A DNA stretch of 64,000 nt, from assembly GCF_013085465.1 (NCBI RefSeq), contig NZ_CP049838.1:9672001-9736000 (forward strand), read 5' to 3'. A program made the position numbers and the translations under genes. Source of the DNA: Streptomyces asoensis (GTDB lineage Bacteria > Actinomycetota > Actinomycetes > Streptomycetales > Streptomycetaceae). The notes under the pieces were generated by a model. It did no database searches. It was not told the DNA's origin and saw nothing but the letters and a program-made list of their open reading frames with translations. Each line of letters starts with the position of its first letter. Positions within the stretch are counted from its first letter, which is position 1. Shown here piece by piece: positions 22,046 to 60,656 of this stretch.

Positions 22046-22297
22046 TCAGGCACGGGGAAGCTTCGACAGGCTGCCCCACAGCGTCGACGGCGTCGCGAAG
22101 GTTTCCATGACCAGCATCTCGTCCGGCAGTTCCACCGAGAACCTGTCCTCCAACTCCGCCACCAGGCCGAGCAACGTCAGCGAATCCAGGCCCAGTTCCG
22201 TCAGGCTCGCGTGCTCGTCGACGGGTGTCTCCTCGTCGAGGAAGGGCAGTGACCGCCGGAGCACGGATTCGAAGTCGCTGTAGGAAAGGTCGTTCAC
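22046..22297 (-). CDS. Acyl carrier protein
   Basis: 83 residues, a complete free-standing carrier protein. The phosphopantetheine site is TELGLDSLTLLGL (Ser39). Helix 1 is short and acidic. It is the outermost gene of the cluster on the minus strand and divergent from a second carrier gene. Its cargo is unknown; partners may be the free-standing condensation domains or the BtrH-like acyltransferase. Confidence 0.85.
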   Translation of the reverse strand: MNDLSYSDFESVLRRSLPFLDEETPVDEHASLTELGLDSLTLLGLVAELEDRFSVELPDEMLVMETFATPSTLWGSLSKLPRA

Positions 22298-22425
22298 GGG
22301 CTGCTCCTCGATGCTGTGGGCCTGTGGGCGACGGCTGCGCCCCCGTACGGGTCAGGGTAGTCCGTACACGATCAAGAAGGGAGCCATTGCTGAAACAATT
22401 TGTTCATGTTTGGCCAACGATATCC
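22298..22425. promoter_or_regulatory. Divergent promoter between two carrier-protein genes
   Basis: 128 bp between divergent starts, unusually A/T-rich near 22375-22415 for this genome. It contains a small palindrome AACAATTTGTT at about 22393. Both promoters should lie here. Confidence 0.4.
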
Positions 22426-22719
22426 GTGAGCAAGTATGCCGATGTGACGAGCCATCAGAGGGATGAATTATTCTGTGATGTATCCACACTTCTGAAGTCG
22501 GTCGACGACACATTCGACCCGGACCGAATCGCACCCGATGCGCATTTGCTTTCCCTCACCCTGGGATCACTTCAGCTGCTCGAGTTCTTGAACCGTCTGG
22601 AGGAGCGGTTCCGGATATCCATTCCCGACGAGGATCTCGTCATCGACCGTTTCTCGACCCTGGAGAAAATCGTCGCCTACGTCGCCTCGCGTCAGGCGGA
22701 AGCCGGGGACGGGCGGTGA
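22426..22719 (+). CDS. Carrier protein with TTA codon
   Basis: 97 residues. The site for the pantetheine arm is in LTLGSLQLLEFLNRLEERF (Ser48), followed by the conserved IPDEDL element. It starts with GTG at 22426 (SKYADVTSHQRDE); a GTG 6 codons later is an alternative. Codon 15 is TTA, so translation probably depends on the bldA leucyl-tRNA. Base composition is lower in GC than in the neighbours. The stop overlaps the next start (GTGA), so the carrier and the aminopropyltransferase-like protein are coupled. Confidence 0.75.
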   Translation: MSKYADVTSHQRDELFCDVSTLLKSVDDTFDPDRIAPDAHLLSLTLGSLQLLEFLNRLEERFRISIPDEDLVIDRFSTLEKIVAYVASRQAEAGDGR

Positions 22720-23871
22720 GTGCGGAGCAACACGCCGAGTGGTCCCGTGCTCTGCGGGCTGAGGGGCCGGACGACGCACGCGACCCGCGGGCCACCGTGC
22801 GCGCGGTGGCCCAGTTCGTCCAGCGCGCGGGGCGGCGGACGGCTCGACGACATCGTCCGTGGCCCGATGACGGTCAACTCCGGGCTGTGGCTGCTCTCCC
22901 GCATGTGCCGGGACGGGACGGTGCGCGTGGAACCCGGCGGTACGGTCCGGCCCACGGCCGTCGTCCCGGCCGCCCGCGACGACGGCGCGCCGGGGCTGGT
23001 CGACCTCACGCTCGCCGACGGGCTCGTCGACTGGGAGGTCCTGGCCGACGTCCTGGCGCGGCGCACCTACACACCGGACCCGGAACTGCACCAGAGCTTC
23101 GACACCTTCGCCTCGCTGCGGCGACGGCTCGCGGTCATGGACTACTACGACGACCTCGACGGCCGGACGATGCTCCAGCTCGGCGACGACGAGATGTTCG
23201 GCGTGGCCGTCGGCCTGGCGGACGGTGTGCGGCACGTGCATGTCGCGGACACCGACGAACGCGTGCTCAAGGCCATCGGGGACGAAGCGGCCCGTCTTGC
23301 TCTGGGCCTCACCACGCACGCCGTCGACGTACGCCGGGACAGGCCGAATCTGTCCGACGTGGACACGTTCTTCGTGAGCGGGCTCAAGGACCCCGGCGGT
23401 CTCTTCCTGTTCGTCGCGACCGCCGTGTCGACCGTGTCGGGAGCGGGCGCGGTCGGTTACGTCAGTTTTGATCTCGACGTTTACAGGGCCGGCACCGGTG
23501 CCGGCTCGGGTGGGGAGCCGGCGCAGCGAGAGGTGCTGCGGATGTTCGACCGACTCGACTGCACCGTCACCGCTCTCCTGCCCGGCGACGACGGGCTGCT
23601 GGAGGACTCCGTCCTGGCGGATCTGGCCGAGGCCACCCGGGACGCGGCGCGGTACGCCGCCTCACCGACGGAGCTCGGGGCACGGCTGCGGAGACTGCTC
23701 GCCCAGCGGCCCGCCGGTGCCGACCTGTCGCTCTACCAACCCGGATTCCCGCACGCGCAACTCAGGCCCATCTCGCTCGCCCGGATCGTGACCGGCCCGG
23801 AGAGCAGGCGGCTGGCGAGCCGTTACCTCGGGTTCCTCCAGAGCGCGGTGCCGGCCGAGGGCGGCGGCTGA
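22716..23871 (+). CDS. BpsA-like aminopropyltransferase homologue, apparent frameshift
   Basis: The C-terminal about 330 residues match the catalytic domain of the branched-chain polyamine synthase family (DUF43): a D(L/F)xGRTMLQLGDDEMFGVA segment similar to the GDDD loop, then VADTDERVLKAIGDEAA and a HAVDVRRDR stretch. The downstream DPPY-type motif is replaced by SGLKDPGG, so activity is doubtful or altered. The natural start is GTG 22716, coupled to the carrier gene. This frame is lost near 22829-22832, where one extra G in a GGGG run moves translation out of register. Removing one base gives QRAGGGRLDDIVRG and a continuous protein of about 384 residues. It may be a sequencing error or a real mutation. 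Confidence 0.6.
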
Positions 23872-23909: not shown

Positions 23910-25196
23910 TCAGGGCTGGATCCCCTGGGCGGGAGCCGGAGCCTGTTGGGGAGGTGCGGCTTGCTGGGCCGGGGTCGGGGGTTGTTCGGCCGGGGTGGTC
24001 GGGTCCTCGGCGGGGACGAGGCGGCCGGGGCGGAAGGGGCCTTTGCCGCAGTTGGGGCAGCCTTCCGTGCGCAGGGCGGCGACCGCGGTCCAGCGGGCGC
24101 CGGGTCCGACGCGCAGCCGGGTGTTGCATGCCACGCAGGTGTATTCGCGCTGCCGGGTCCGTTTGTCGCCGGTGTAGAGGGGGCCGCTGAACTCGCCCTC
24201 GTGGGAGGGGGCCGTGGAGGTGGTCGTGAGCAGGTGCTGGAAGAAGCCGACGCCGCCGAGGATGCCGCTGCCCTCGTACTCGTTGAAGTTGCGGATGAGT
24301 GCGTTGGTGACCAGGCCGAGTCCCATGATCTCCCGCTGCACCTCCAGCATCTCGTCCGGGCTCTTGCCGCCGAAGGAGAAGAAGATGCTGTGTGCGGGGC
24401 CGGGGCGCAGGCCCTCCACGGCGCGGGAGAGGAAGAGGCGGGCGCCTTCGGGGGTGTAGGGCGGGTCGGTCATGGCCACGTCGTGCTGCCCGCGGATCTC
24501 GGCGGGCAGCGGCAGGCGCAGGTCGTGTCGGACGGTCTCGACGCGGGTGCCGAGGCCGGCCGACACCTTCCGGATGTAGTCGAGGATCTCCGGGGAGATG
24601 TCCACGACGGTCACCCGCTCGACGATCGGAGCGCCGAGCACGTCGCCCACCACGGCGACGGCGAGGGAGACCAGGTCGTCGTCGCCGATCAGCAGCAGCG
24701 AGCCGCCCGGCAGCGCGCCCGCGGTGAGCAGCGCGAGGACCCGGCGGACCTTGGTCTCGGCCGTGCAGTGCGACTGGTCGATGGCCATGTCGGCGGCGGG
24801 ACCCGACTCCATGAGGGCGCGCAGCCGCCGTACGGCTTCGTCCAGGACGTCGGGGATCACGAGCTCGCGCCCGTCGCAGGTGGTGCAGGTGGCGTCGAGG
24901 GACAGGTCCATGCCGAGCCGGGCGACGAGGTCCAGGCCGTCCTCGGTCAGCCGGGACGGGCGCTGGGTGGTGATGAATCCCCGGCGGCGCAGTTCGTTGC
25001 CCAGGGCGGCCACGATCGGGACGGGCAGGCCGGTCGCGCGGCTGAGGTCCTTCGTGGAGGCGGGCGCCAGACGGCGCAGCGCACGCAGGACGGACCGCAC
25101 TCCGGGCGGGCCCTCCTGGAGCCGGACGGCTTCCGCGACTTCCGTGAGCACGGAATCCGCGGTGGCACGCCGGCGGTGTCGAGGCGCGTCCTTCAC
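23910..25196 (-). CDS. bpsA: N4-bis(aminopropyl)spermidine synthase-like aminopropyltransferase
   Basis: 428 residues. The order is a winged-helix-like N-terminus, a zinc-type CTTC motif (residues about 100-104), and then the Rossmann-like catalytic core. The core has LLIGDDDLVSLA (the GDDD loop, residues about 169-172, which in the archaeal enzyme supplies the catalytic Asp), VVDISPEILDYI, and AMTDPPYTPEGARLFLSR. A CxxC pair (CVACNT, CPNCGK) and a long Pro/Ala/Gln tail follow. The known reaction adds aminopropyl groups from decarboxylated AdoMet to the secondary amine of spermidine, giving branched polyamines. Start GTG 25196 overlaps the stop of the BtrH-like gene by 4 bp, showing coupled expression. 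The gene converges with the divergent paralogue. Confidence 0.85.
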   Translation of the reverse strand: MKDAPRHRRRATADSVLTEVAEAVRLQEGPPGVRSVLRALRRLAPASTKDLSRATGLPVPIVAALGNELRRRGFITTQRPSRLTEDGLDLVARLGMDLSLDATCTTCDGRELVIPDVLDEAVRRLRALMESGPAADMAIDQSHCTAETKVRRVLALLTAGALPGGSLLLIGDDDLVSLAVAVVGDVLGAPIVERVTVVDISPEILDYIRKVSAGLGTRVETVRHDLRLPLPAEIRGQHDVAMTDPPYTPEGARLFLSRAVEGLRPGPAHSIFFSFGGKSPDEMLEVQREIMGLGLVTNALIRNFNEYEGSGILGGVGFFQHLLTTTSTAPSHEGEFSGPLYTGDKRTRQREYTCVACNTRLRVGPGARWTAVAALRTEGCPNCGKGPFRPGRLVPAEDPTTPAEQPPTPAQQAAPPQQAPAPAQGIQP

Positions 25197-26323
25197 AAGG
25201 CAACTCCGGGCGGGCTGAGGGGATCGGGGCCGCTCAGTGTACGGTCGGCGGATTGTGGGCCCGACCCGGCGAGGGATTCCCGCAGTTTCGCGTTCCACTC
25301 TGTTTCCAGCGTCGCCGTCTCGGCGATGAGGTCGCCGATGCGCCGTACGGCCACGGATCCCTTCCGGAAACGCAGGAAGAAATAGTTCCGGGTCATCTCC
25401 CAGCGCCGGGAAAGGGCCTCCGCGTCGGCGGCCCGATCGTGCAGGGACGGGAGCGCGCAGGTCTCGGCGGCGGCCCGCAGGAAGCGCGCGTTCAGGGCGC
25501 GTTGGCTGGCCAACTCGCCGAACCAGGCGCTGACCTCGATCGTTCCCACGGGGCTGAGGGAGGTGAAGGCGTCCGGGGTGGCGCGCAGTTCGTCCGCGCA
25601 CGCGGTCACCAGATCCGCGCCGGCGGCGGAGTGCGCGTTCCGGGCGACGGCGGAGCGGAACCGCTCCTGCTGCGTCTCCTTGCGTGTCTCTTTGTGCGCC
25701 GCCTTCTCGGCTTCCCCGGATTCGAGCGGGCCGGCCTTCACGACCACCGTGCGATTTCGCCAATCGGGGTCACCCCTGCGGGCTTCTCCGAGCGCGTCCG
25801 ACGACATGGCGGTGAACAGCGTGCTGCTCTCCATGAAGCCGTCGAAGAGGGACCCCTGATAGCGGTCGACGATCCGCAGCGAACCGGCCCTTTCCTCGTC
25901 GTTGCCGTCCCCGGGGCGGATCACGATCCGGTGAGAATGATGCTGTTGACGGTGGAACGAGCTGTGGGGGACATGGAAAGTGTCCACCCAGGCGATGACC
26001 GGATGCCCCTCCAGCAGCCGAGCCCGAATATATTCCTCGGCTCGTCGCGAGTCGGCGTGATGCACGTGGTCGGCGGCCAGACCGTACCAGTCGTGCAGGA
26101 TCTCCTCGGGTGTCCGACGCTGGATCCCGAGGTGTTCCACGGGCCATTCGGTGTCGACGGTGTCCGTCCTGCGGTGGTATCCCCAGTGGTCTCCCAGAAC
26201 GCTCGGATCGTGACCGAGCCAGGCCGCCGTGATACCGAAGGTCGCCGAAATACAGTCAAGTGCCGAGAAATCCGGGTCCGTTGCGCCCTGCCGCTCCAAG
26301 AACTCCGCTCCTTCGTTGCTCAT
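25193..26323 (-). CDS. BtrH-like acyltransferase/peptidase-fold protein
   Basis: 376 residues. The N-terminal half has the BtrH N-terminal domain pattern: an early Cys (LDCISATFGITAAW, Cys24), a WYGLAADHVHH motif, then GHPVIAWVDTFHVPHSSFHR and HHSHRIVIRPGD with a His. This is a papain-like catalytic arrangement. In butirosin biosynthesis BtrH transfers a carrier-bound acyl chain to an amine. The C-terminal half is helical and charged. By analogy this enzyme may move an acyl group from a cluster carrier protein to a polyamine (inference). Two starts are possible: ATG 26323 (chosen) and TTG 26347, which has GGGAGG upstream. The gene is coupled to bpsA. Confidence 0.7.
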   Translation of the reverse strand: MSNEGAEFLERQGATDPDFSALDCISATFGITAAWLGHDPSVLGDHWGYHRRTDTVDTEWPVEHLGIQRRTPEEILHDWYGLAADHVHHADSRRAEEYIRARLLEGHPVIAWVDTFHVPHSSFHRQQHHSHRIVIRPGDGNDEERAGSLRIVDRYQGSLFDGFMESSTLFTAMSSDALGEARRGDPDWRNRTVVVKAGPLESGEAEKAAHKETRKETQQERFRSAVARNAHSAAGADLVTACADELRATPDAFTSLSPVGTIEVSAWFGELASQRALNARFLRAAAETCALPSLHDRAADAEALSRRWEMTRNYFFLRFRKGSVAVRRIGDLIAETATLETEWNAKLRESLAGSGPQSADRTLSGPDPLSPPGVAL

Positions 26324-26537: not shown

Positions 26538-26918
26538 ATGACCAACTCCAGCAGTCCCGCCACCGAGGAAATAAACGTCGACGATCTGTGCTCGTACGCA
26601 GTCGACGTATGGGTGAGCGACCACAGCATCCTGACCGACGAACAGCGCCTCCTCAAGATCCTGCGCACGGCCGCCGAAAAGGGAAACGCCACGGTACTCG
26701 GTGAGTCCTCGCACGTCTTCCCGAACGGTGCCGTCACCGCCATCCTCCTTCTCTCCGCCTCGCACCTGAGCATCCACACCTGGCCGGAATTCAGCCTCGC
26801 CAACATCGACCTGCTCGCGTACGGCCGCCTGAACGGCGAACGGATGATGCAGAGCGTGGAGTTGGGTCTCTCGCCCACGAGGATCAACGTGACACGCATG
26901 CTGCGCGCGGTGCACTGA
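26538..26918 (+). CDS. speD: S-adenosylmethionine decarboxylase proenzyme
   Basis: 126 residues, the size of bacterial class 1b SpeD. The self-processing site is SASHLSIHTWPE with the pyruvoyl-forming Ser75; the usual Glu before it is Ala here (ASH instead of ESH). The catalytic Cys region and the SSHVFPNGAVTA stretch are present. The product, decarboxylated AdoMet, is the aminopropyl donor for polyamine synthases. Its place next to two BpsA-like genes makes this a dedicated supply gene. The start is uncertain because no ribosome site is well spaced; the longer frame from 26364 is not supported. Confidence 0.85.
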   Translation: MTNSSSPATEEINVDDLCSYAVDVWVSDHSILTDEQRLLKILRTAAEKGNATVLGESSHVFPNGAVTAILLLSASHLSIHTWPEFSLANIDLLAYGRLNGERMMQSVELGLSPTRINVTRMLRAVH

Positions 26919-26928
26919 CCCGCACCGT

Positions 26929-27624
26929 TCACAGCCACCCCGAAAGCGACGCGAGGAACGCGTCGAAGCTGTCCCGGTGGATCGCGTGCGTGGCGTCCGG
27001 CACGGTCCGCACCTCGAACCCCCGCCGTGTCAGCTCCGCCCGCATCTCCCCGCTCACCAGCGTGCTCGGCTCCGCCGCCTGGACCAGGGAGCGGACGAGC
27101 GGCTTCGCCGGCATGTGATCGGCGGCCCGGTACGCGGAGAGGGCGAGCGCCGACCGCTCGTCCCAGGCGTCCAGCGCCGCCAACTCGGCCGCGACCTCCC
27201 GCTCTCCCCACTCCGGGCGCAGACTCCTGATGAGCAGCCGAGGCGCGCGCTTGAAGAGGGTGAAAACGGCCGGGTCGAGGGTGCCGTCCGGGCCGCCGAG
27301 CCGCCAGGCCGGCTCCGAATAGACGGCACGCTCCGGTTCCAGTTCCGCCACCGCGAGCGCCAGGGCCAGGGCGCCGAGCGAGTGGCCCAGCGCCAGCTCG
27401 GGGCCGCGGGGCAGCGTCTCCAGCAGGTCCTGTGCGAACAGGTGCGGCGCGTACGCCCCCCGGCCGCTGCCACCGTGGCCGCGCAGGTCCACGGCGAGGA
27501 CGCGGTAGCCCCGGCCGGTCAGGACCGGGACCAGCTCGTGCCAGGTGCGGTGGTCGGCCATGAGGCCGTGGACGAGGACGGCGACGCGGTCGCCGGTGCC
27601 CCACTCCCGGGTGTGCAGTCGCAT
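26929..27624 (-). CDS. Alpha/beta-hydrolase
   Basis: 231 residues. The typical elements are VLVHGLMADHRTWHELVP (oxyanion hole), VDLRGHGGSGR, LALGHSLGALALALA (nucleophile Ser), and a C-terminal DATHAIHRDSFDAF with the catalytic His. It could be a hydrolase, thioesterase or acyltransferase. Within the cluster it may release a carrier-bound product or trim an ester. It lies 13 bp downstream of the LmbE-like gene on the same strand and is probably co-transcribed. Confidence 0.85.
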   Translation of the reverse strand: MRLHTREWGTGDRVAVLVHGLMADHRTWHELVPVLTGRGYRVLAVDLRGHGGSGRGAYAPHLFAQDLLETLPRGPELALGHSLGALALALAVAELEPERAVYSEPAWRLGGPDGTLDPAVFTLFKRAPRLLIRSLRPEWGEREVAAELAALDAWDERSALALSAYRAADHMPAKPLVRSLVQAAEPSTLVSGEMRAELTRRGFEVRTVPDATHAIHRDSFDAFLASLSGWL

Positions 27625-27637: not shown

Positions 27638-28711
27638 TCACCCGGCCGCGGCGGCTTCCTCCGCCGCCGCGGACGCCAACTCCCCGAAGGCGTCGGCGGA
27701 TTCCGGCAGCACCCAGAGGCGCTCCGCCCACCCCGGCGCGCCGAGCCGCCGGCCATGGCGGACGATGCGTTTCGAGACCGCCTCCAGAACCTGGAGCCGG
27801 TAGGGCCACAGCGCCTCCTGCTTGGTGCGTACCGCCGCCTCCGACGCCGGGATCAGCACCGGGACCGGCGCGGCCGCCGCCGGCCCGACCGCGAGCCGGC
27901 CGGCTTCGGCCGCGGCGTCCGCGAACAGCGAGTACGGCATGTCCTCGTAGAACGCGACCCGTTCGGGTTCCAGCGTCTTGCGGGCGATCAGTTCCAGTGC
28001 GGCCTGCCGGGTCAGGACGTGGTCGACATGCCCGCCCACGGCCAGCGGAACGAGCACCGGGCGCCCGCCCGCCACCTCGCCGGCCAGATCGGCGGTGACG
28101 CGCTCGAACAGCTCCGGCTCCGTCGCGCGGGCCGCGTCCACGGCGTGCGGCTCCAGGAAGTAGCCCTCCCGCCAGGCGGCCCGGTCGGCGGCGTCCAGGT
28201 GGCCGAGCACGGTCAACTCCGCGCCCAGTACCCCGCACGCCACCCGCTCCTCCTCCAGCAGCAGGCGCGAGGCGAGCGCGGGACGGCTCCGATAGTGCGG
28301 GTGGCGCGTCCAGGTCTCGTGCGAGAACACGTCCACCACCCGGCCGCCGAACCGGGCGAGCAGTCCGCCCAGGGCCAGTTGGGCGTCGTCCGGGTGGGGA
28401 GAGAGGAAGACCGGGGCGCTTGACGGCTGCGTGCGGGGCGGCGGAGCGGCGACCACCAGTCCCGCCGCATGCCAACCGGCGATCAACTCCCGTTCCAGGG
28501 AGGACCAGGAGCGGTACGGCCGGGTTCCGTCGCATGCGTGCCACAGTTCCGCGGCCGACGCGGGGAAGACGGCCGGATCGACCGGCTCGCCGAGGAACCG
28601 CACCTCGGCACCGTCGAACTCGGTGTGCGGCAGCCGAATCGGCCGGTCGTCCGCCGAGAGTGCGTGCGTTGTGCGCCGGACCAGGGGGGCGGGGGAGGGG
28701 CGCTCTGGCAT
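27638..28711 (-). CDS. LmbE/PIG-L deacetylase with PqqD-like N-terminal domain
   Basis: 357 residues. The C-terminal domain (from about residue 100) is LmbE-like: SPHPDDAQLALGG (zinc-binding HPDD), and GGHVDHVLTRQAALEL (the third zinc ligand). Members deacetylate N-acetylglucosaminyl compounds; MitC has this role in mitomycin biosynthesis. The first 90 residues (PIRLPHTEFDGAEV, then ASAAELWHACDG and LIAGWHAAGLV) look like a PqqD-type winged helix, the fold of RiPP recognition elements. That assignment is tentative. It is followed by the alpha/beta-hydrolase. Start ATG 28711; an ATG 10 codons upstream is also possible. Confidence 0.75.
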   Translation of the reverse strand: MPERPSPAPLVRRTTHALSADDRPIRLPHTEFDGAEVRFLGEPVDPAVFPASAAELWHACDGTRPYRSWSSLERELIAGWHAAGLVVAAPPPRTQPSSAPVFLSPHPDDAQLALGGLLARFGGRVVDVFSHETWTRHPHYRSRPALASRLLLEEERVACGVLGAELTVLGHLDAADRAAWREGYFLEPHAVDAARATEPELFERVTADLAGEVAGGRPVLVPLAVGGHVDHVLTRQAALELIARKTLEPERVAFYEDMPYSLFADAAAEAGRLAVGPAAAAPVPVLIPASEAAVRTKQEALWPYRLQVLEAVSKRIVRHGRRLGAPGWAERLWVLPESADAFGELASAAAEEAAAAG

Positions 28712-28830: not shown

Positions 28831-29475
28831 ATGTACGTACTCACCCGGGGACTTGCCGCGCCCGATGCCGCCCGCTTGCGGGAGGCCTGTGAGCGCACCG
28901 CACTGCCGCTGAAGGAGGCGGCGGCGCAGGACCCGCGGGGAATGGCCGCGCATGTCGCCGACGACCTTCTCGTCGCCTTCGTGGCCGCCGAGGCAGACGG
29001 CTCGGCCCCGCTCGAACTGCGCGAGATCACCCGCGAAGGCGCCTACGCCGTGCTCGTACAGCCGACGCCGACCGCCAAGGGCACGCTGGCGGCGATCCGT
29101 TCGGGCGCCGGATTCGTCATGGCCGCGCCGCTGGGCGTCGAACGCCTCGTGTCCTTCCTGACCTATCTGCGGGACGTCGCCGCCCCCGCGTCCGCCCAGG
29201 TCCTCGACCTGGACGAGAACGGCGTGCTCACCACGCCGTCCGCGTCCGTGCGGCTGTCCGAGGCCGAGGCCAAGGCACTGCGCGCGCTCGCCGACCGCCG
29301 GGCCGTCATCGTCCCCCGGCCCGACCTGTTGCGGCTGACCGGCGAGGACCCGCGGGACGTCATCGAGGCGCTGCGGGCCCGGTTCCGGGAGGTCGGCTCG
29401 GGCGCCCAGATCCTCAAGGTGCCGCACATGGGGTTCCGGCTCGTCGGGGAAGTGCGGCTGAAGGCCACCGCGTGA
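28831..29475 (+). CDS. OmpR-type transcriptional regulator with atypical receiver
   Basis: 214 residues. The C-terminal half (RLSEAEAKALRALADR, then PRDVIEALRARFREVGSG and ILKVPHMGFRLVGEV) is a winged-helix DNA-binding domain of the OmpR/PhoB class. The N-terminal half has a receiver-like length but no phospho-acceptor Asp pattern that I can identify, so it may respond to a ligand rather than a kinase. No histidine kinase gene is adjacent. It overlaps the next gene by 4 bp (GTGA). Likely cluster-situated regulator. Confidence 0.75.
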   Translation: MYVLTRGLAAPDAARLREACERTALPLKEAAAQDPRGMAAHVADDLLVAFVAAEADGSAPLELREITREGAYAVLVQPTPTAKGTLAAIRSGAGFVMAAPLGVERLVSFLTYLRDVAAPASAQVLDLDENGVLTTPSASVRLSEAEAKALRALADRRAVIVPRPDLLRLTGEDPRDVIEALRARFREVGSGAQILKVPHMGFRLVGEVRLKATA

Positions 29476-51964: not shown

Positions 51965-52288
51965 TCAGGCAGACCCACTCCGTGCGTGGTCGATCGACTC
52001 CAGTCCCAGCCGTCGTACGTCCCCGAAGCGCGCCTCGTCGAGAAGCGCGGTCATCAGCGTGACGTCCAAGTCCTCGACGTCCGGGGCGAATTCGGCGGTC
52101 TGCGAGGCGATCCGGGCCGCGTCGATCGAGGTGCCTCCGGCGTTGTAGAAGTCCGAGTCCTCCTCCGGGAGGGAGCCGAGCACGCCGTGCCACGCCTGCG
52201 CGAGGGCCGCCGCGAGACCGTCGAGTCCGTTCGGACCCTGCCGCGTTGCCGAGGTGTCCACATCCGCCATGGCAGGAACATAACGCAC
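51965..52288 (-). CDS. Peptidyl carrier protein
   Basis: 107 residues from the chosen GTG, which has GGGAG 7 nt upstream; ATG starts at 52303 and 52270 are possible. The carrier site is DSDFYNAGGTSIDAARIASQ with Ser54. The GG(T)S form is PCP-like. It lies between two condensation-domain genes on the opposite strand, convergent with one and divergent from the next. It probably carries an amino acid from the NRPS A domain or from an unlinked source. Confidence 0.75.
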   Translation of the reverse strand: MRYVPAMADVDTSATRQGPNGLDGLAAALAQAWHGVLGSLPEEDSDFYNAGGTSIDAARIASQTAEFAPDVEDLDVTLMTALLDEARFGDVRRLGLESIDHARSGSA

Positions 52289-52405: not shown

Positions 52406-53812
52406 ATGACGGCGACATCACATGGGCCGGATCAGGGACTTCCTCTCTCCTCGCGCCAGGAGTGGTGCTGGGAGTGGGAGAGGTGTTACGACGAGCCCTA
52501 CCCCAAGGCCGTCTCCCTCGACTGCTCCACCACCCTCCGTATGCGGGGTCCCCTGGACGTCGGCGCGTTACGCGACGCACTCGCCGAGGTCGCCCTGCGC
52601 CATGACGCGTTGCGACTGCGGTTGCTCGACACCGGGACGCCGGTCGAGCGGGTGGTCCGACCACGGCAGGCCCTGCGCCCGGAGCCGTTCCCCCTGGACA
52701 CGGTGGACCTGGGCGACGCACTGCGCCGACGGGAACTGCACGAGATCCTCCTCGACCTGACCACGCGCCCCTTCGACGTCACCGAATGGCTGTCCCGGGC
52801 CACCCTGCTGCGGCTGGCCGCCGACGACCACGTCCTGCTGACCAGCTTCCACCACATGGTCTTCGACGAGCCGAGCCATCAGGTCTACCTGCGCGACCTC
52901 GCCGACTTCTACAACCGCCGCGTGGCCGCTCCCGTCGCCGACGGAGGCCGACCCCCCTTCTCCTACGTGGACTTCGTCCGCGCCGAGAACACTCCTCAGG
53001 CCCGCCTCGACACCGCGTCCCGCCTGGCGGACTGGGCGGACCGGCTGCGCGCCCACGGCTCCGGGGACCTCCTGCCCGGCCGCACCACCGGGTTCCTCCC
53101 GCTCCAGCACCACTACGAAAGCGTTCCCCTGGACCTGTCGGCCGAAGAATCCCGGCGGCTGCTGCGCACGGCCCGCGCCGAGCGGGTCTCCCTGTACGCG
53201 CTGCTCGCGGCGGCGCTGACCCGGACCCTCGGCGGCTTCTACGGCCGCGAGCGGCTGATCCTCTCCACGCCCTCGCACGGCCGTCTGCGCCCCGAGACCC
53301 GCTCCGCCCTGGGCCTGTTCTCCAACATGATCCAGGTGCCGGTGGATCTGAGGCGGGCCTCGCCGAGCGGACTGTTCCGGCAGGTCGACGGCCGCATCAG
53401 GGACGCCTCGGCGGCGGTCGACCTGCCGTTCGGCCGGCTCGCCGAAACCGTCCTGGGCCGCCAGGGCGACGCGGCCTTCTTCCGCCACGCCCTGGCGCAC
53501 GCGGAGTTGCGCCTGTACGGGGTGACCGGCTGGATCGTCGACCGACGGGAACACGAGTTACCCATGCACGGACTGCGCACCGGCCTCGCCCCCTACCACC
53601 AGGATTTCTCCCGGCTCAAATACGCGACACCGCAGTCCTCCCTGGCCGGCGCGGCCACTCTCTCGGTCGGCCTGACCATGGAGTCGGGCCGGCTGACCGG
53701 CGCGCTGCGCTATGAGACGACGTATCACGGACGCCGTACGGCCGAGGCCCTGGCGAACGGCTTCCGGGGACGTCTGACGGACCTGGCGCGGGTCGGGGCC
53801 ACAAGGCGGTGA
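52406..53812 (+). CDS. Free-standing condensation-domain protein 3
   Basis: 468 residues, same plan as the protein at 48886 (QEWCWEWERCYDEPYPKAV start). The core motif is FHHMVFDEPSHQ (His149, His150, Asp154), so the catalytic His is present. A GLFSNMIQVPVD segment follows. Two TTA codons (codons 55 and 385) make it a bldA-dependent gene candidate. ATG 52406 with AGGCAGGT upstream. It faces the PCP gene at 51965 across a 117-bp divergent promoter. Confidence 0.85.
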   Translation: MTATSHGPDQGLPLSSRQEWCWEWERCYDEPYPKAVSLDCSTTLRMRGPLDVGALRDALAEVALRHDALRLRLLDTGTPVERVVRPRQALRPEPFPLDTVDLGDALRRRELHEILLDLTTRPFDVTEWLSRATLLRLAADDHVLLTSFHHMVFDEPSHQVYLRDLADFYNRRVAAPVADGGRPPFSYVDFVRAENTPQARLDTASRLADWADRLRAHGSGDLLPGRTTGFLPLQHHYESVPLDLSAEESRRLLRTARAERVSLYALLAAALTRTLGGFYGRERLILSTPSHGRLRPETRSALGLFSNMIQVPVDLRRASPSGLFRQVDGRIRDASAAVDLPFGRLAETVLGRQGDAAFFRHALAHAELRLYGVTGWIVDRREHELPMHGLRTGLAPYHQDFSRLKYATPQSSLAGAATLSVGLTMESGRLTGALRYETTYHGRRTAEALANGFRGRLTDLARVGATRR

Positions 53813-53818: not shown

Positions 53819-55666
53819 TCATGTCCGGGTCGTGTCCGGGTCATGCCGGGCGGGGGACTCCCGGCCCGGACCCTCCGCGAGGACGTCGTACCGGCGCCAC
53901 TCCTCCTGCGTGGCGGGCCCGTCGGGCCCTGCCGCGCAGACGACGTACCGGTGCGGGGCCATCACGAACCTGCGCCCGCGCAGGGCGGCCAGCAGCAGCC
54001 GGTGCACCTCCGGCGGCCCGGGTGGCCGCTGCGCGTGCGCGGGTACGAGGTACGCCGTCAGACGCGGGCTGCCGGTGGCGCCCGGTTCTAGGAAGACCTG
54101 GGCGGACCGGGGGGACAGGGCCTGCGTGAGCAGTGCCTGCACCTCGGCCGGATCGACCCAGCAGCCGTCCACGAGCACCAGACCCTCGCGTCGCCGCAGC
54201 CCGGCGAGTGCCTCGGCGTCCCGGACGAGGTCCTTCGGTCGAGGCGCATCGCCGGCGGCGGCCCTCAGGAGGATGTCCTCCAGGCAGGTGAGGAAGCCGG
54301 TGAGCCGGTCGCGGGAGAAGAGTGCCGTGTCCGCGGAGAGCGTGACCTCCAAGCACCCCGACACACGCCATACGTCGACGTAGAACTTGCCCGGCTCCCA
54401 CTCCTCGATGCCGCCGTCGTCGTCGAAGGCCGTGAGCTCGTGCGCCGTCCCCTGGGCCGTCAGGGTCTCACTCTCTTCCTGACCGCCGTATCCGTGGATG
54501 TTGAGGAAGCACTCGAGGTCGAGGTCGACTCCTCGGACGGACGCCACCGACTCGGTGACCCGGTCGAGCCGGCGCGGGTCGCGCTCGCCGACGCGGTAGG
54601 CCCGCAGGGACGCCTGCCACGCCGCGTGCGCGATGTCCCGGAAAGGGAGGTCCGCGACCGTGAGGGCCACCGGGATGGTCTGGAAGAAGGTGCCGACCGA
54701 GTTGCGGCTCTCCACGGACGTCCGGTTGGCGCAGAAGAGCCGGAACGTGACGTCCTCCAGCTCGCTGATCGCGCTGATCAGCACCGCGAGGGCGCCGGTC
54801 AGCACGGCGTTGACGGTTGTGCCGTGGCGTGAAGCCGCCTCCGCCAGCGCGCGCGCCGCCGTTCGGGAGCGCATGGTGATCTTCGGGAACCGAGGGGATT
54901 CGGGAGTCCGCAGGGGGAAGGGGAAACGGTCGTTGGGGAAGCGCGAGAGCTGGGCGGTCCAGAACGCCTCGGCCCGGGCCTCGCTCCGGCCGCCGGCCCG
55001 GCGCTGCGCCGCGGCGTGCTCCCGCGGCTGCACCAGAGGGCGGGGCGGTCGGGCGGACAGGACGTCACGTTCCTCCGGCGCCGCCGCCAACAACTCTCTG
55101 ATGTCACCGGCGATCACCTCGATGCCCCAGCCGTCGGTCGCGACATGGGAGAGACACAACGCCACACCGGAGACGATGCCCGAGACGGTGACCACCGCGA
55201 CGCGCAGGGGCCACTCGAACACCGTGAAAGGAAGGCGTCTGAGCTCCTCCAGGACCGCCTCGGACGCCTCGAAGGCGGCACAGTGGTGGACCTGGACAGG
55301 GACCCTCCCGCTCGCGCAGACGAACTGCCGGTACCCACCGTCCTTCTCTACGTTGAGCCGCGTCCGCAGGGACTCGTGGCGCTCGATCACCACCCGGAGA
55401 GCCTCACGGACGTCGTCGAGCGTCGTCCTCGCGCCCGTCTCGCACTCGATCAGCACATCGAGGTTCATGTGCTCTATGTGAGGGGCGGAGTTCTCCATCC
55501 ACAGACACACCTGTTCCTGACCCCAGGTGAGGTCGGCGACGCCCGAGGTGCCGGCGCTGAACTCGACCAGGACCAGCTCGGTTTCGTGGCGTTCCACAGG
55601 ACGGCCGACTCCTCGCTCGCTCGGGTCGTACGGGACAGCCGGCCAGTCGCTCGGACCCGACGTCAC
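53819..55666 (-). CDS. Condensation domain with truncated adenylation C-terminus
   Basis: 615 residues. The C domain has LTWGQEQVCLWM (C1-like), RHESLRTRL, and CLSHVATDGWG (Ser in place of the first His, then the catalytic His174 and Asp178, Gly kept). NSVGTFFQTIPV and the GGQEESETLTA region follow. Residues about 500-600 (LVLVDGCWVDPAEVQALL, MAPHRYVVC) resemble only the C-terminal subdomain of adenylation enzymes, without any core A domain. It may be a remnant of a lost C-A protein. The start is GTG 55666, with a weak ribosome site. Confidence 0.78.
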   Translation of the reverse strand: MTSGPSDWPAVPYDPSERGVGRPVERHETELVLVEFSAGTSGVADLTWGQEQVCLWMENSAPHIEHMNLDVLIECETGARTTLDDVREALRVVIERHESLRTRLNVEKDGGYRQFVCASGRVPVQVHHCAAFEASEAVLEELRRLPFTVFEWPLRVAVVTVSGIVSGVALCLSHVATDGWGIEVIAGDIRELLAAAPEERDVLSARPPRPLVQPREHAAAQRRAGGRSEARAEAFWTAQLSRFPNDRFPFPLRTPESPRFPKITMRSRTAARALAEAASRHGTTVNAVLTGALAVLISAISELEDVTFRLFCANRTSVESRNSVGTFFQTIPVALTVADLPFRDIAHAAWQASLRAYRVGERDPRRLDRVTESVASVRGVDLDLECFLNIHGYGGQEESETLTAQGTAHELTAFDDDGGIEEWEPGKFYVDVWRVSGCLEVTLSADTALFSRDRLTGFLTCLEDILLRAAAGDAPRPKDLVRDAEALAGLRRREGLVLVDGCWVDPAEVQALLTQALSPRSAQVFLEPGATGSPRLTAYLVPAHAQRPPGPPEVHRLLLAALRGRRFVMAPHRYVVCAAGPDGPATQEEWRRYDVLAEGPGRESPARHDPDTTRT

Positions 55667-55967: not shown

Positions 55968-57263
55968 ATGACCGACGGTCTGGCGGCTCGACTACCTCTG
56001 GACCTACTGCGCGAGCGCAACCTGCGACGGTTGTTCTGCGCGCAGGCCGCCTCGGTGCTGGGCAGCAGCATGATGCCCATCGCCCTGTCCTTCGCCGTGT
56101 TGGAGCACGGCGGCGGGGCGAGCGGGGTGGGCCTGGTGCTGGGCGCGCAGACCGCGCCCCTCATGGTGTTCCTGCTGGCGGGCGGTGTGCTCGCGGACCG
56201 GTGGGGCCGCCGGGTCACCATGATCGGGAGCGACCTGGTCCGCGCGGCCATCGAAATCACCGTGGTGGTCATCCTGTTGACCGTCGGTATGCCGCTGGGC
56301 GGCTTCGTCGCCTTCGCCGCGGTGCTCTCGGTCGCCGCCGCGTTCTTCCACCCCGCCTTCCACGGCTTCGTCCCGGAGGTCGTCTCCGGCAAGCGCCTCC
56401 AGGAGGCCAACGCCCTCGGCTCCACCCTCAATTCGATCGGCTCGCTGTTCGGACCGGCCGTCGCCGGCGCGCTCGTGGCCTGGACCGAGCCGGCCTGGGT
56501 CATCGCCATCGACGCGGCCACCTTCCTGGCCAGCGCGCTGTTCCTGGCCGGAGTGCGCACCTCGTCCTCCGCCACGGACCCCGCTCGCGAGGACGAGAGC
56601 TTCTGGCACCAACTGCGGCACGGGTGGCGTGAGTTCAGCTCCCGCACCTGGCTGTGGTCCCTGCTCGCCTACACGTCGTTGGCGTCCACCTTCGTCCTGG
56701 GGCCCGTGATGGTGCTGGGGATCACCTTCGTCGGCGGTAAGGAGAACGGTGCCGCCCAATGGGGCACCGTCATGGCCGCGCAAGGGGTCGGCTCACTCCT
56801 CGGCGGATTCGTGGGAATGCGGCTGCGCTTCCGCAGGCCGCTGCTGGCGTCCGTCTTCTGTACGTTCGGCCTGGGAGCCTTCGCCGGCCTCCTCGCGCTG
56901 CGCGCGCCCGTCTACGTCCTGGTCGTGGGCTCGTTGCTGTCCGGCGCGGGATTCGCGCTGCTGCACATCCTCTGGACGAGCAGCCTCCAGGCCGATGTGC
57001 CGTCCGATGCGATGTCCCGCGTCAGCGCGTACGACGGTGTGGCGACCGTGCTCTCCATGACCGTGGGCTACTGGTGGGCGGCTCCGACCGCGGACCGGGT
57101 CGGGGCCGCACCGTTGCTGTGGTTCGGCGTGGTGTGGACCGTGGCGAGCGCCGCCGTGATGGTCACGCTGCCGCAGATCCGCCGGTCCGCGCCGGGCGCG
57201 GAGAAGGGCGGGGGCGACGACGGGGTCACCGCGGAGGCGCGAGAGCCCTCCACGGCGCGCTGA
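55968..57263 (+). CDS. MFS drug exporter
   Basis: 431 residues with about 12 hydrophobic segments. The loop 2-3 motif GVLADRWGRRVTMIGSDLVRA is the MFS signature motif A variant. Cluster context predicts export of or resistance to the product. It is 300 bp from the oppositely oriented C-domain gene with a palindromic operator between. ATG 55968 has GGGGGAC upstream. Confidence 0.9.
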   Translation: MTDGLAARLPLDLLRERNLRRLFCAQAASVLGSSMMPIALSFAVLEHGGGASGVGLVLGAQTAPLMVFLLAGGVLADRWGRRVTMIGSDLVRAAIEITVVVILLTVGMPLGGFVAFAAVLSVAAAFFHPAFHGFVPEVVSGKRLQEANALGSTLNSIGSLFGPAVAGALVAWTEPAWVIAIDAATFLASALFLAGVRTSSSATDPAREDESFWHQLRHGWREFSSRTWLWSLLAYTSLASTFVLGPVMVLGITFVGGKENGAAQWGTVMAAQGVGSLLGGFVGMRLRFRRPLLASVFCTFGLGAFAGLLALRAPVYVLVVGSLLSGAGFALLHILWTSSLQADVPSDAMSRVSAYDGVATVLSMTVGYWWAAPTADRVGAAPLLWFGVVWTVASAAVMVTLPQIRRSAPGAEKGGGDDGVTAEAREPSTAR

Positions 57264-57406: not shown

Positions 57407-57461
57407 GTGGCAGGTCCCCGAGCGGGATGCCGTCCAACCGCAAGGAACGAAGGGGAAGTCG

Positions 57462-60400
57462 ATGCCGGAGCCCGGTCTGTCGATCATCGCCGGAGCCATG
57501 AGCCCTGTCCCCGACCACGTGTACGCCATGTTCCGCGCCCAGGCCGAACGCCACCCCGGGCGGACGGCGGTCCGGCATGGTGGCGAGGCCTGCACTTATC
57601 TCGAACTGCATGCCAAGGCGGAGGAGTTGGCAGCTCGGCTGTTCCGCCGAGGGGTACGCCCCGGCACACCGGTCGCCGTGTACACGGAGCGCGGCCTCCA
57701 CGCGGTCGGTGCCCTGCTGGCCATCCTGCGGCTGGGAGCCACGTATGTGCCGATCGACGTGCACCATCCGCTGGAGCGTTCCCGGGCCGCCCTGCGGGCC
57801 GTCGGTGCGACCTGCGTACTCGCCTGCGGCGACGTGCCGTTCGACTGCGCCGAAGCCGTGGATCTGCGCCGTCCCGAGCCGGGGGAGGAGGTTCCCGCCA
57901 CCGCGCCGCTGCCCGCCCCCGACGATCCCGCCTACATCCTGTTCACGTCGGGTTCGACCGGCGTGCCCAAGGGAGCCCTGCTTCCCTATCGTGCCCTGTC
58001 GAATCTGGTCTCCTGGTTACGGCGTATGGCGAGCGTGGGCGTGGGGGCCCGTACGGTCCAGTTCTCCCGGGTGAGCTTCGACGTCTTCCTCACGGAGGTG
58101 CTCGGCACTCTGACCACCGGAGGTGAGCTGCTGGTGCTCGACGAGTCCCGCCGGGCGGACGTCGAATACCTCCTGCGGTTCTGCGAGGACCGGCATGTCC
58201 AGCGGCTCCATCTGCCGTTCTCGGCGCTCCGCCCCTTCGCCGAATGGGCGGAGTACAAGAAGGCGTTGCTGCCGAGTCTCGTCGAGATCTCCACGGCCGG
58301 CGAACAGCCGTATGTGACAGCCGCGTTGGAGCGGCTCCTGGGCGGTGGCGCCCGGCCGATCCGGCTCACGAACCAGTACGGCCCCACGGAGACCCACGTG
58401 GTCACGGAGGCGATCCTCACCGGCGATCCGGCCGGCTGGCCGCGCACGCCGTCGGCCGGAGTCGCTCTCGACAACACCGTCGTCGCCCTGCTGGACTTTG
58501 CGGGCGCCGTCGTACCGGTCGGCGACGAGGGCGAGGTGAGCGTCGTCGGCGCGCCGGTGGGGCTGGGCTATCTGGGGCCGGCGTCCACGGAGTCGGGCGC
58601 GGGTTTCGGCCCGATCGAAGCGCTGGGGGGACGCTGGGGTTACCGCACCGGCGATCTGGGTCGGATCGAGGGCCGCGAACTGCTCCTGCGCGGCCGGATC
58701 GACGACCAGGTGAAGATCAGCGGACACCGGGTGGAGCCCGGCGAGATCGAGATCCTCGCCGACCGCGCCGCGAGCCTCGCCGAAGTCGCCGCCGTGGCCG
58801 TGGACGCGCCCGGAGGTACGCGGGCCATGGCGCTGTTCGCGGTACCGGCGCCGGGGGCCACCGTGGACCCGGACGCCCTGCGCAGTGCACTGGCCCGCCG
58901 CCTGCCGGAGGCCGTGGTGCCCAGCCGCATCGTCCTGTGCGAGGCGCTGCCCCGCACCAGCACGGGCAAGATCGACCGCAGAACCCTGGCCGAGCGGCCC
59001 GCCGAGCGCGAAGCCGACCGAGCAGCCCCGGCCGTCCTGTCGGCCCCGAAACCCGCGCTGACGGCGGACGAGGCACGGATCGCCGGACGCCTGGCCGCGG
59101 TGCTGGGCCTGGAGGAGGTCCTTGCATCGGATTCCTTCCTCTCCCTGGGCGGCAGCTCGTTGCAGGCGATGACCCTGATGACCGGGCTGGCGGCCGAGTT
59201 CGGCAGCGCGCCCGGGATCGACCGGCTGCTGGCCGGAGCGACCGTGTCCGACCTGGCCGGTCAGCTGCGGGCGGGCCGCTGGGAGGAGGCCGACGACAAC
59301 CGCTCGCCCCACGAGGCGAATCCCTCCGTCCCGACCGCCCCCTCCGGCTCCCACGTCCCGACCGTCCCGAGCGACCCGACCGTCCTGTCCGTGCCCGCCG
59401 GCGCATCCGGGGAGAGAACGACGCGGTTGCTCCCCGCATCCACCGTGCAGTCCGAGATCTGGCTGGCCGGCCGGCTCGGAGACCCGACGGCGTACAACGT
59501 GACGATCGCCCTCGACGTCACCGGCACGCTGGACCACGCACGACTGCGACACGCCCTGCGGCGCACCATCGCCCGGCACCCGGCTCTGCGCGCACTCCTG
59601 ATGCGCAGGCGTGACCGTATCCTCGTCCACCACCCGGAGGACTGGCCCACCCCGTTCGAGTTCGAGGAAGTCGGCCCGGCGGAGACCCGGACCGGCGCGG
59701 AAGCGAGTGAACGAGCCTTCGCGGAGCGGCCGTTCGACGTGCGAACGGACCTGCCGATCCGCCTGGCCCTGCTGCGCGGCCCGAGCCGGGACCGGCTGGT
59801 GGTCGCCTTCCACCAGCACGCGGTGGACGCCCCCGCCATACAGACGGTCATCGACGATCTGGCCCACTGGTACCGCAGCCCGGACGGGGCCCCGGAAGGG
59901 GCTGCGGATGACACCACGGGCGCAGCGGCGTTCGGTCCGCAAGCCGGTCCGGGCCCGGCGGAAGCCGCCACGCTGGCGTACTGGAGATCGGCTCTCGCGG
60001 GCGTCGCCCCGGCCCATACGACCTGGCTGCGGCGTGAGGGCGCGTCCCCCTCCGGACGGCCGGTGCATCGGCGCCTGGAACTTCCCTACGATGTGCTGCG
60101 CCCGGACCGGAGCGCACCCGAGAGCGGCACGGTCACCCGGTTCGCGAGGATCATCGGCGCCTTCGCCCACGCCGCGCACGCTGTCGGAGCACCCGAGGAG
60201 TTCCTCACCGGTGTCGTCTCGACGCGCCGAGTCCCAGGGGTCTCTCCCTCCGTGGGCTGCCACTTGGGCCTCCTGCCGATCCTGCTGCGGCCGGCGGCCG
60301 AGCTCTCCGAGACGGTGACCGCCGTACACGCCACGATGGCGACGGCGCTGTCCCACCGGCAGATCTCCCTCGGCGAGCTGGCCTCCGTCCTGCCGAGGGG

Positions 60401-60656
60401 CTCGGCCGTGACCACGACGTTCGGACTCGACGACGCGGAGACACGCGAGATCGACTTCGCGGGAACGCGCGCCACGACCCGCTACGTCCACGCGCGCACT
60501 CTCCAGTTCCCCCTCGCCCTCACCCCGTGGACGAGCCCGCTGGGCACCGCGGGCCTGGACGCGGTCTTCGACGACGGCCTCTACCTGCCCCACACGGTCG
60601 ACGCCCTGCTCAGCGAATGGTCCCGCCTCCTCCGCCACTCCGCGAAGCCGCGCTGA
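57462..60656 (+). CDS. NRPS module A-T-C
   Basis: 1,064 residues. The A domain (residues 20-530) has LFTSGSTGVPKGALL (A3), FDVFLTEVLGTL (A4, with the Asp that binds the alpha-amino group), NQYGPTETHV (A5), YRTGDLGRI (A7), GRIDDQVKISGHRVEPGEIE (A8) and RTSTGKIDRR (A10). The T domain is LGGSSLQAMTL (residues about 560-570). The C domain (residues about 650-1050) has a core motif AFHQHAVDAPA, with Gln for the catalytic second His, so its normal condensation function is doubtful. The order A-T-C places the C domain downstream of loading. The substrate cannot be read safely. Codon 186 is TTA (58017-58019). Confidence 0.93.
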   Translation: MPEPGLSIIAGAMSPVPDHVYAMFRAQAERHPGRTAVRHGGEACTYLELHAKAEELAARLFRRGVRPGTPVAVYTERGLHAVGALLAILRLGATYVPIDVHHPLERSRAALRAVGATCVLACGDVPFDCAEAVDLRRPEPGEEVPATAPLPAPDDPAYILFTSGSTGVPKGALLPYRALSNLVSWLRRMASVGVGARTVQFSRVSFDVFLTEVLGTLTTGGELLVLDESRRADVEYLLRFCEDRHVQRLHLPFSALRPFAEWAEYKKALLPSLVEISTAGEQPYVTAALERLLGGGARPIRLTNQYGPTETHVVTEAILTGDPAGWPRTPSAGVALDNTVVALLDFAGAVVPVGDEGEVSVVGAPVGLGYLGPASTESGAGFGPIEALGGRWGYRTGDLGRIEGRELLLRGRIDDQVKISGHRVEPGEIEILADRAASLAEVAAVAVDAPGGTRAMALFAVPAPGATVDPDALRSALARRLPEAVVPSRIVLCEALPRTSTGKIDRRTLAERPAEREADRAAPAVLSAPKPALTADEARIAGRLAAVLGLEEVLASDSFLSLGGSSLQAMTLMTGLAAEFGSAPGIDRLLAGATVSDLAGQLRAGRWEEADDNRSPHEANPSVPTAPSGSHVPTVPSDPTVLSVPAGASGERTTRLLPASTVQSEIWLAGRLGDPTAYNVTIALDVTGTLDHARLRHALRRTIARHPALRALLMRRRDRILVHHPEDWPTPFEFEEVGPAETRTGAEASERAFAERPFDVRTDLPIRLALLRGPSRDRLVVAFHQHAVDAPAIQTVIDDLAHWYRSPDGAPEGAADDTTGAAAFGPQAGPGPAEAATLAYWRSALAGVAPAHTTWLRREGASPSGRPVHRRLELPYDVLRPDRSAPESGTVTRFARIIGAFAHAAHAVGAPEEFLTGVVSTRRVPGVSPSVGCHLGLLPILLRPAAELSETVTAVHATMATALSHRQISLGELASVLPRGSAVTTTFGLDDAETREIDFAGTRATTRYVHARTLQFPLALTPWTSPLGTAGLDAVFDDGLYLPHTVDALLSEWSRLLRHSAKPR

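Follow-up and report, generated by a model that had tools for sequence, protein, structure and literature searches.

3-Amino-5-hydroxybenzoate (AHBA) is described as the precursor of the ansamycins, saliniketals and mitomycins (excerpts of PMC8788734 and PMC8621148). In mitomycin biosynthesis, AHBA bound to a carrier is glycosylated and then deacetylated (excerpts of PMC9570651 and PMC8621148). Pactamycin is an inhibitor of the small ribosomal subunit, kept to use as a tool by its toxicity (excerpt of PMC11397182), and the ptm genes of Streptomyces pactum are grouped into those for radical S-adenosylmethionine (SAM) enzymes (ptmC/H/L/M), a glycosyltransferase (ptmJ), sugar-modifying enzymes (ptmA/B/G/N) and polyketide synthase (PKS) genes (ptmI/K/O/Q/S) (excerpt of PMC13402214). 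Here we describe a gene cluster (g16-g49, positions 22046-60656) in a window of 64,000 nucleotides of Streptomyces asoensis (NZ_CP049838.1, bases 9672001-9736000; single-contig genome of 10.04 Mb, G000) that appears to join a mitomycin-type starter module to a pactamycin-type ring module, and that probably directs the synthesis of a pactamycin-like aminocyclopentitol in which AHBA replaces 3-aminobenzoate. All positions of the cluster are those of the window.

Gene content of the cluster

Pfam scans covered the 40 window proteins g13-g52, with g1-g12 outside the scan, and an Rfam scan gave no matches. The scans and gene models confirmed the gene families that a preliminary description had placed in this region: the AHBA synthase g35 and its partners g29, g30, g36, g38, g39 and g41, which we take to be RifG-, RifI-, RifL-, RifM-, RifJ- and RifN-like enzymes, respectively; the carriers g16, g17, g32 and g45, the ligase g40, the family-2 glycosyltransferase (GT2) g42, the LmbE deacetylase g23 and the carbamoyltransferase g34; and SpeD (g21), two BpsA-like proteins (g18, g19), a BtrH-like protein (g20), an A-PCP-C non-ribosomal peptide synthetase (NRPS, g49) and free-standing condensation domains (g43, g44, g46, g47). 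To this list Pfam added g25, g26, g27, g28, g31, g33 and a second DegT aminotransferase, g37, all of them central to the cluster. No family of the aminoDAHP synthase RifH was detected in g13-g52, g1-g12 not being covered.

The starter genes

An AHBA synthase was detected at E <= 1e-100 in 16 of 121 genomes of the genus, that of the window included, and the loci of the 15 others were read, some of them ending early at contig ends. One genome (G086) has a row of consecutive genes for AHBA synthase, GT2, deacetylase, a radical SAM and a ligase of 762 aa, and at a distance of about 21 kb a methyltransferase matching the mitomycin 7-O-methyltransferase MmcR (E 8.5e-180); the row and this match together identify a mitomycin cluster, the only one on that side of the comparison. 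The pactamycin-type references were the clusters of S. acidiscabies (G046), Crossiella sp. SN42 (G049) and Streptomyces sp. AJS327 (G050).

The g40 ligase is 43% identical to the MitE-like protein of the mitomycin cluster versus 29-32% for ligases of the pactamycin type (G050 yielded none), and g42 is 50% identical to the MitB-like protein versus 33-41% to the pactamycin-type glycosyltransferases (none called in G049). Both trees (13 rows each) split window-type and mitomycin proteins at 100/100 from those of the pactamycin type and of a sister cluster of S. niveiscabiei described below, and holding the window with the sister was rejected (p-AU, the P value of the approximately unbiased test, 3e-44 for the glycosyltransferase and 4e-5 for the ligase). 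The PtmT-like reference proteins found no match in the window, where AHBA genes, a MitE-type ligase and a MitB-type glycosyltransferase are present instead of the 3-aminobenzoate starter set PtmT/PtmS/PtmJ. Judged by homology, the starter module (AHBA synthesis, ligase and glycosyltransferase) is of the mitomycin type.

The ring-building genes

The S. acidiscabies cluster reads aminotransferase, carbamoyltransferase, radical SAM, methyltransferase, AAA-like, regulator, deacetylase, radical SAM, carrier and GT2, followed by ketosynthase, two B12-radical SAMs, oxidoreductase, hydrolase, PKS (type I, 1724 aa, KS-AT-KR-ACP plus a weak DH match), KASIII, AMP ligase and class III aminotransferase, and thus follows the alphabetical ptm order. 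Our letter-by-letter Ptm assignment presumes this order together with the general naming of the ptm genes. The Crossiella cluster keeps the order, its GT2, PKS and KASIII not being called; in Streptomyces sp. AJS327 the first part is split into rearranged blocks, and neither a PKS or KASIII nor a ligase or class III aminotransferase was seen in the stretch read. In gene classes these references agree with the excerpt of PMC13402214 on S. pactum, a species that also has a homologue of g26 (65-66%).

For each of the eight window proteins compared, identity to the three pactamycin-type clusters exceeds that to the mitomycin cluster. The values are 69-71% versus 48% for g34, 63-64% versus 32% (MitD-like) for g28, 64-68% versus 28% for g26, 45-52% versus 37% over 177 aa for g23 and 45-48% versus 38% over 53 aa for g32. 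In the mitomycin cluster, g37 only cross-matches the AHBA synthase, g27 (47-52% pactamycin-type) only cross-matches a RifL-like protein, and g24 (39-40% pactamycin-type) has no match. A g37 homologue of at least 65% was found in all ten genomes searched. Taken together, the window holds homologues of PtmA, B, C, G, I and N and at least one PtmL/M radical SAM at 45-71%, and the ring-building module is, on this comparison, pactamycin-type.

The mitosane-type tailoring of the preliminary description did not survive this comparison, the genes acting after glycosylation being pactamycin-type. The AHBA genes, the MitE-like ligase, the MitB-like glycosyltransferase, the deacetylase, the carbamoyltransferase and a radical SAM, all of which are present, would fit a mitosane made from carbamoylated AHBA-glucosamine and bearing further amide-linked groups. 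However, the deacetylase, the carrier, both radical SAMs and the carbamoyltransferase are nearer to pactamycin-type proteins (45-71% versus 28-48%; MitC/MitD-like proteins reach 32-37% with the window versus 45-64% for pactamycin-type ones), PtmA-like g37 and PtmN-like g27 are without mitomycin counterpart, and the MmcR-like protein and those in what we take to be the MitF and MitH places match nothing in the window. A mitosane core was rejected on these grounds, and a mitosane-type pathway is unlikely.

A sister cluster with another starter set

The genome of S. niveiscabiei NRRL B-24457 carries a sister cluster (G044:C517) with all eight back-end proteins at 61-87% identity and further homologues of g20, g22, g25, g31, g33, g43 and g48 at 43-73% (Table 1). 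No AHBA gene and no SpeD was found in it. It holds instead a PtmJ-like glycosyltransferase (45-53%), a PtmS-like ligase (50-53%) and a PtmT-like class III aminotransferase (62-65%). Since the same back end stands there with pactamycin-type starter genes, the starter set was likely exchanged whole, and a natural swap of starter modules between window-type and sister clusters, in either direction, is the likely explanation. The novelty of the system lies in the chimeric pathway and this swap, which are read from the sequence, the product and each enzymatic step being predictions. Literature searches on AHBA with mitomycin or pactamycin gave no such hybrid cluster or product among the matches listed.

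Back-end trees joined window and sister for LmbE (90/95), the carbamoyltransferase (92/90) and the carrier (78/43). The radical SAM tree did not (62/52 against; p-AU 0.295 when held together).

The S. niveiscabiei genome (L051-L054 and L030) appears to carry both the sister cluster and a pactamycin-type locus. A partial relative in Streptomyces sp. IBSBF 2953 (G045:C142, L102-L103) has homologues of g20, g24, g26, g31, g33, g46 and g48 with other genes between them, and no starter genes were seen in it. A second contig of that genome, G045:C146, was considered as a further hybrid and rejected, since its AHBA genes are accompanied by large synthase-like genes, as at the 1.34-Mb locus of the window genome.

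Genes g16-g49 form one cluster

The 15 genes g29-g43 run in a row on one strand, none separated from the next by more than 94 bp, and within g35-g43 each of the eight junctions is an overlap. AHBA genes, PtmA-like g37, the ligase, the glycosyltransferase and the condensation protein g43 are interleaved in this operon-like row, which argues against two independently expressed neighbours, the case that the preliminary description had itself set against a single cluster. Two features might suggest an AHBA/pactamycin-like cluster with a polyamine/NRPS cluster of its own next to it: the paralogues of g19, g21, g22 and g25, which a chromosomal cassette at 3.796-3.8005 Mb carries in matching order and orientation, and the 340-bp gap beyond which g44-g49 lie. 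This arrangement is highly improbable, as PtmG-like g23 and PtmF-like g24 sit inside the g19-g25 block, g43 overlaps g42, all genes but g19 stand together in OV320, and the sister cluster holds homologues of g20, g22, g25, g43 and g48.

Relatives were sought by scanning genome contigs with an alignment of g26 relatives, which gave 15 loci, 14 of them annotated and the fifteenth an archaeal protein of 25% identity. Three of the 14 have the window gene order at 79-100% identity where read, namely OV320 (L018), S. phaeoluteigriseus (L019) and S. bobili (L020). Of the remaining annotated loci, tandem g26 homologues occur at seven (L023-L029), fragments of two at L031, and a single fragment at L030, where the contig is short. 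In the ten g26-locus genomes, an AHBA-synthase search matched in seven at E <= 1e-40, four of them at 94-97%, and added Streptomyces sp. IBSBF 2953 (G045) as a fourth relative. The cluster thus recurs whole in one genome and partly in three more. In OV320, g16-g49 are all present except g19 at 82-100% identity (the g17 gene is not called, but its sequence is there), and the edges g16 and g49 hold. The AHBA synthase of S. phaeoluteigriseus reads as two frames and its contig ends in g42; that of S. bobili ends in g43. In the G045 copy some genes are shortened or absent, and no g43-g49 were found next to its g42. We conclude that g16-g49 form one biosynthetic gene cluster, and the view of an AHBA cluster distinct from those of ansamycins and of mitomycins, with condensation-domain genes as part of the unit, is borne out.

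A dead or decaying cluster that makes nothing is also very improbable. The G045 copy and the degenerate motifs of two window condensation domains fit decay, but the window frames are open, the proteins are 82-100% conserved in OV320, and the OV320 orthologues share the degenerate motifs.

The polyamine-type genes

The polyamine aminopropylation of the preliminary description is weakly supported. A chromosomal gene at 3.7987 Mb, coding for a BpsA-GNAT protein of 618 aa, shares 98.5% nucleotide identity with g19 over 1288 nt. The g19 copy stops before the GNAT part; it is absent at this place in OV320 and S. phaeoluteigriseus. The chromosomal BpsA-GNAT gene occurs in all five cluster-bearing genomes, and each of the four relatives has one BpsA match, on a contig other than that of the cluster. 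For g18 the match to BpsA structures is weak (E 6e-13), and the DPPY motif, retained in g19, is missing; g18 was found in the window and OV320, not in S. phaeoluteigriseus or G045, and the S. bobili contig ends before it.

SpeD lies inside the cluster in five of five genomes. These copies group in a clade of their own, separate from the chromosomal SpeD proteins (96/92), which makes SpeD an old cluster member. Alignment of g21 to the T. maritima SpeD (1tlu) showed that S63 and H68 are kept as S75 and H80, and that C83 is replaced by Y95. According to the excerpt of PMC10407285, S63, H68 and C83 are essential for processing and two of them also for catalysis. The S63/H68/C83 set is incomplete in the cluster SpeD, and no BpsA gene is conserved in the cluster. 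Tyrosine for Cys83 was also seen in the chromosomal SpeD copies of seven genomes, and no third SpeD was detected in the window genome at the family cut-off. A neofunctionalised SpeD (ornithine/arginine decarboxylase) was considered and fits poorly, as the authors of PMC10407285 expected that enzymes of this kind would retain S63, H68 and C83 too. A Streptomyces SpeD subfamily with tyrosine for the catalytic Cys83 adjoins BpsA in the chromosomal loci retrieved by the BpsA searches (L006, L007, L089-L094).

The chromosomal cassette (G000:C1:3796163-3800529) reads phosphopantetheinyl transferase, hydrolase, SpeD and BpsA-GNAT, in the order and orientation of g25-g22-g21-g19, with g23/g24 and g20 between these genes in the window; that of another genome (G013) is without the hydrolase. 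The match in order and orientation points to shared ancestry of g25-g22-g21-g19 with the chromosomal cassette or to recombination with it.

An AHBA-polyamine conjugate, in which SpeD and the BpsA-like proteins would build a branched polyamine to be acylated by free-standing condensation domains, presumably much as VibH acts in vibriobactin, is quite unlikely. The five-of-five presence and single clade of SpeD, the condensation domains and a chromosomal BpsA-GNAT protein that could serve in trans are consistent with it; however, g19 is a recent copy and four of four relatives hold a chromosomal BpsA only, g18 is without DPPY and missing in S. phaeoluteigriseus, Cys83 is lacking in SpeD and likewise in the genome's only other SpeD, and the sister cluster has a BtrH-like and a condensation protein without SpeD. 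Polyamine as a defining feature was rejected because g19 is strain-specific, g18 degenerate and SpeD without its cysteine; SpeD and the BtrH-like protein remain as old members. Literature searches found nothing on AHBA with spermidine or on branched-chain polyamine gene clusters.

Proposed pathway

The route below presumes homologous function and the roles ascribed to the Ptm enzymes. The products of g29, g30, g35, g36, g38, g39 and g41 would make AHBA, which g40 would load on the carrier g32, g25 arming the carriers. Then g42 would attach N-acetylglucosamine (GlcNAc) to the AHBA amine and g23 would deacetylate it, after which the PtmC-like radical SAM g28 would close the sugar to a five-membered ring. 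Oxidation and amination of the ring by g27 and g37, C-methylation by g26 and carbamoylation by g34 would follow, with g31 and g33 contributing an oxidation and a methylation.

No ketosynthase or other PKS family was detected in g13-g52, and the reference KAS, PKS and KASIII proteins have no match in the window (no PKS or KASIII was seen in G049 and G050 either). Without a PtmK-like ketosynthase the AHBA carboxyl would not follow the extension of pactamycin; it would stay a thioester and give no acetophenone. Release as an amide by a condensation domain is, we infer, the simplest exit. The HHxxxD motif is intact in g43 and g46, g47 has SHxxxDG, those of g44 and the g49 C domain are degenerate, and each state is shared by the OV320 orthologue. 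The free-standing domains g43, g46 and g47 may thus release the carboxyl with an amino acid activated by g49, the BtrH-like g20 may place an acyl group from g16 or g17, and g48 may export the product.

Several points weigh against this reading. The reference clusters are named from gene content, not from any product. The front-end tree groups were named after identities already seen, and their branches are long. The g35 AHBA synthase shows no special affinity to the mitomycin copy, its identity to that copy and to 16 others being 54-59% throughout. None of the four back-end trees rejects window, sister and mitomycin as one side (p-AU 0.06-0.27), the single mitomycin row sitting on a very long branch, so that the back-end claim rests on identity and on the genes without mitomycin counterpart (g37, g24 and g27). 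MitD- and PtmC-like proteins are distantly related (32%), and the ring type therefore cannot be read from the family alone. PtmH, one of PtmL/M, PtmD, PtmK, PtmQ and PtmR have no close counterpart in the window (the PtmH-place protein is only 27-30% identical to g26), so that the end product must differ from pactamycin.

Table 1. Genes of the cluster, with window positions and basis of assignment (sister, S. niveiscabiei cluster)
Gene	Product	Position	Strand	Basis
g16	Acyl carrier protein	22046..22297	-	PF00550; kept in L018, L019, G045; 40% to sister-cluster carrier
g17	Acyl carrier protein	22426..22719	+	PF00550; GTG start 22426 by eye, gene caller 22546
g18	Divergent BpsA-like, without DPPY motif	22720..23871	+	PF01861; 6j27 E 6e-13
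g19	BpsA domain, recent truncated copy of chromosomal BpsA-GNAT gene	23910..25151	-	98.5% nt over 1288 nt
g20	BtrH-like acyltransferase	25193..26323	-	PF14399; 79-82% L018-L020; 49% sister; not called in G045
g21	SpeD-family protein	26538..26918	+	PF02675; alignment to 1tlu
g22	Alpha/beta hydrolase	26929..27624	-	72% sister, 73% chromosomal paralogue
g23	LmbE/PIG-L deacetylase, PtmG-like	27638..28711	-	PF02585; 62% sister
g24	Regulator-like, counterpart of PtmF-place gene	28831..29475	+	61% sister; no Pfam match
g25	Phosphopantetheinyl transferase	29502..30218	+	PF01648; 58% sister
g26	B12-binding radical SAM, PtmL/PtmM-like	30273..32015	+	Pfam; 85% sister
g27	GFO/IDH oxidoreductase, PtmN-like	32012..32959	+	72% sister
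g28	Radical SAM, PtmC-like	32941..34038	-	87% sister
g29	Aminodehydroquinate synthase (RifG-like)	34344..35393	+	PF01761; 65% mitomycin; no sister/pactamycin-type match
g30	Aminoquinate/shikimate dehydrogenase (RifI-like)	35402..36253	+	PF08501; 58% mitomycin cluster
g31	Rieske oxygenase	36250..37401	+	PF00848, PF00355; 73% sister; neither reference type matches
g32	Acyl carrier protein, PtmI-like	37496..37747	+	87% sister
g33	FkbM methyltransferase	37766..38512	+	PF05050; 73% sister
g34	Carbamoyltransferase, PtmB-like	38553..40280	+	85% sister
g35	AHBA synthase	40303..41511	+	1b9h (AHBA synthase) closest solved structure, E 1.7e-124; 56% mitomycin cluster
g36	Oxidoreductase (RifL-like)	41511..42581	+	Pfam; reference-cluster comparison
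g37	DegT aminotransferase, PtmA-like	42578..43798	+	81% sister, 66-68% pactamycin-type
g38	HAD phosphatase (RifM-like)	43791..44450	+	Pfam; reference-cluster comparison
g39	Type II dehydroquinase (RifJ-like)	44447..44920	+	Pfam; reference-cluster comparison
g40	Predicted AHBA ligase, MitE-like	44917..47058	+	43% MitE-like vs 29-32% PtmS-like; tree
g41	ROK kinase (RifN-like)	47055..48020	+	Pfam; reference-cluster comparison
g42	Family-2 glycosyltransferase, MitB-like	48017..48889	+	50% MitB-like vs 33-41% PtmJ-like; tree
g43	Free-standing condensation domain, HHxxxD intact	48886..50289	+	PF00668; 43% sister
g44	Condensation domain, HRxxxD (degenerate)	50630..51928	+	Pfam, motif
g45	Carrier protein	51965..52270	-	Pfam
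g46	Condensation domain, HHxxxD intact	52541..53812	+	Pfam, motif
g47	Condensation domain, SHxxxDG	53819..55597	-	Pfam, motif
g48	MFS exporter	56055..57263	+	Pfam; 73% sister
g49	NRPS, A-PCP-C; C domain HQxxxD (degenerate)	57462..60656	+	Pfam, motif

Other loci of the genome

Two more AHBA sets lie at G000:C1:1341371-1351011 (L012-L013) and 8605871-8624155 (L014-L015), giving three AHBA loci in total. DegT matches with identical scores on opposite strands near both chromosome ends (G000:C1:119406-120302 and 9923999-9924895) suggest terminal inverted repeats of about 120 kb. To the right of the cluster, window positions 61823-63999 encode a trypsin-co-occurring domain and VMAP-type proteins, possibly a conflict system.

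Comparison with known systems and significance

The cluster shares homologues of PtmA, B, C, F, G, I, L/M and N with the pactamycin cluster (39-71%), but has AHBA genes for PtmT and a MitE/MitB-type ligase and glycosyltransferase for PtmS/PtmJ, is without the PtmK ketosynthase, the methylsalicylate genes PtmQ/PtmR, PtmH and PtmD, and adds Rieske oxygenase, FkbM methyltransferase, BtrH, SpeD, condensation and NRPS genes. With the mitomycin cluster it has in common the AHBA genes, the MitE-like ligase, the MitB-like glycosyltransferase and the logic of glycosylating carrier-bound AHBA and then deacetylating it; unlike that cluster, its downstream enzymes are pactamycin-type, NRPS and condensation genes are present, and neither MmcR nor other mitosane-specific genes were found in the window. 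The sister cluster differs in its PtmT/PtmS/PtmJ-type starter and in lacking AHBA genes and SpeD, the back end being the same. With the other AHBA loci of the same genome, assumed to be of the ansamycin type, it shares the AHBA gene set (AHBA synthase 58-59%), whereas those loci adjoin large synthase-like genes (outside the Pfam scans) and g13-g52 hold no PKS.

We consider it evenly balanced whether mitomycin-type and pactamycin-type pathways represent alternative outcomes of a single modular scheme, an aminobenzoyl-carrier joined to GlcNAc with the starter swapped whole, and whether the cluster thereby yields the first AHBA-based pactamycin-like antibiotic, its aryl carboxyl being released as an amide by the free-standing condensation domains. 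The sister pair offers a natural experiment on which carrier, radical SAM and deacetylase accept both 3-aminobenzoate and AHBA. If the reading is correct, an AHBA-primed pactamycin-type pathway would equip an inhibitor of the small ribosomal subunit with a phenol handle and an amide on its aryl side, and would represent a new class of AHBA natural products beside the ansamycins, saliniketals and mitomycins.

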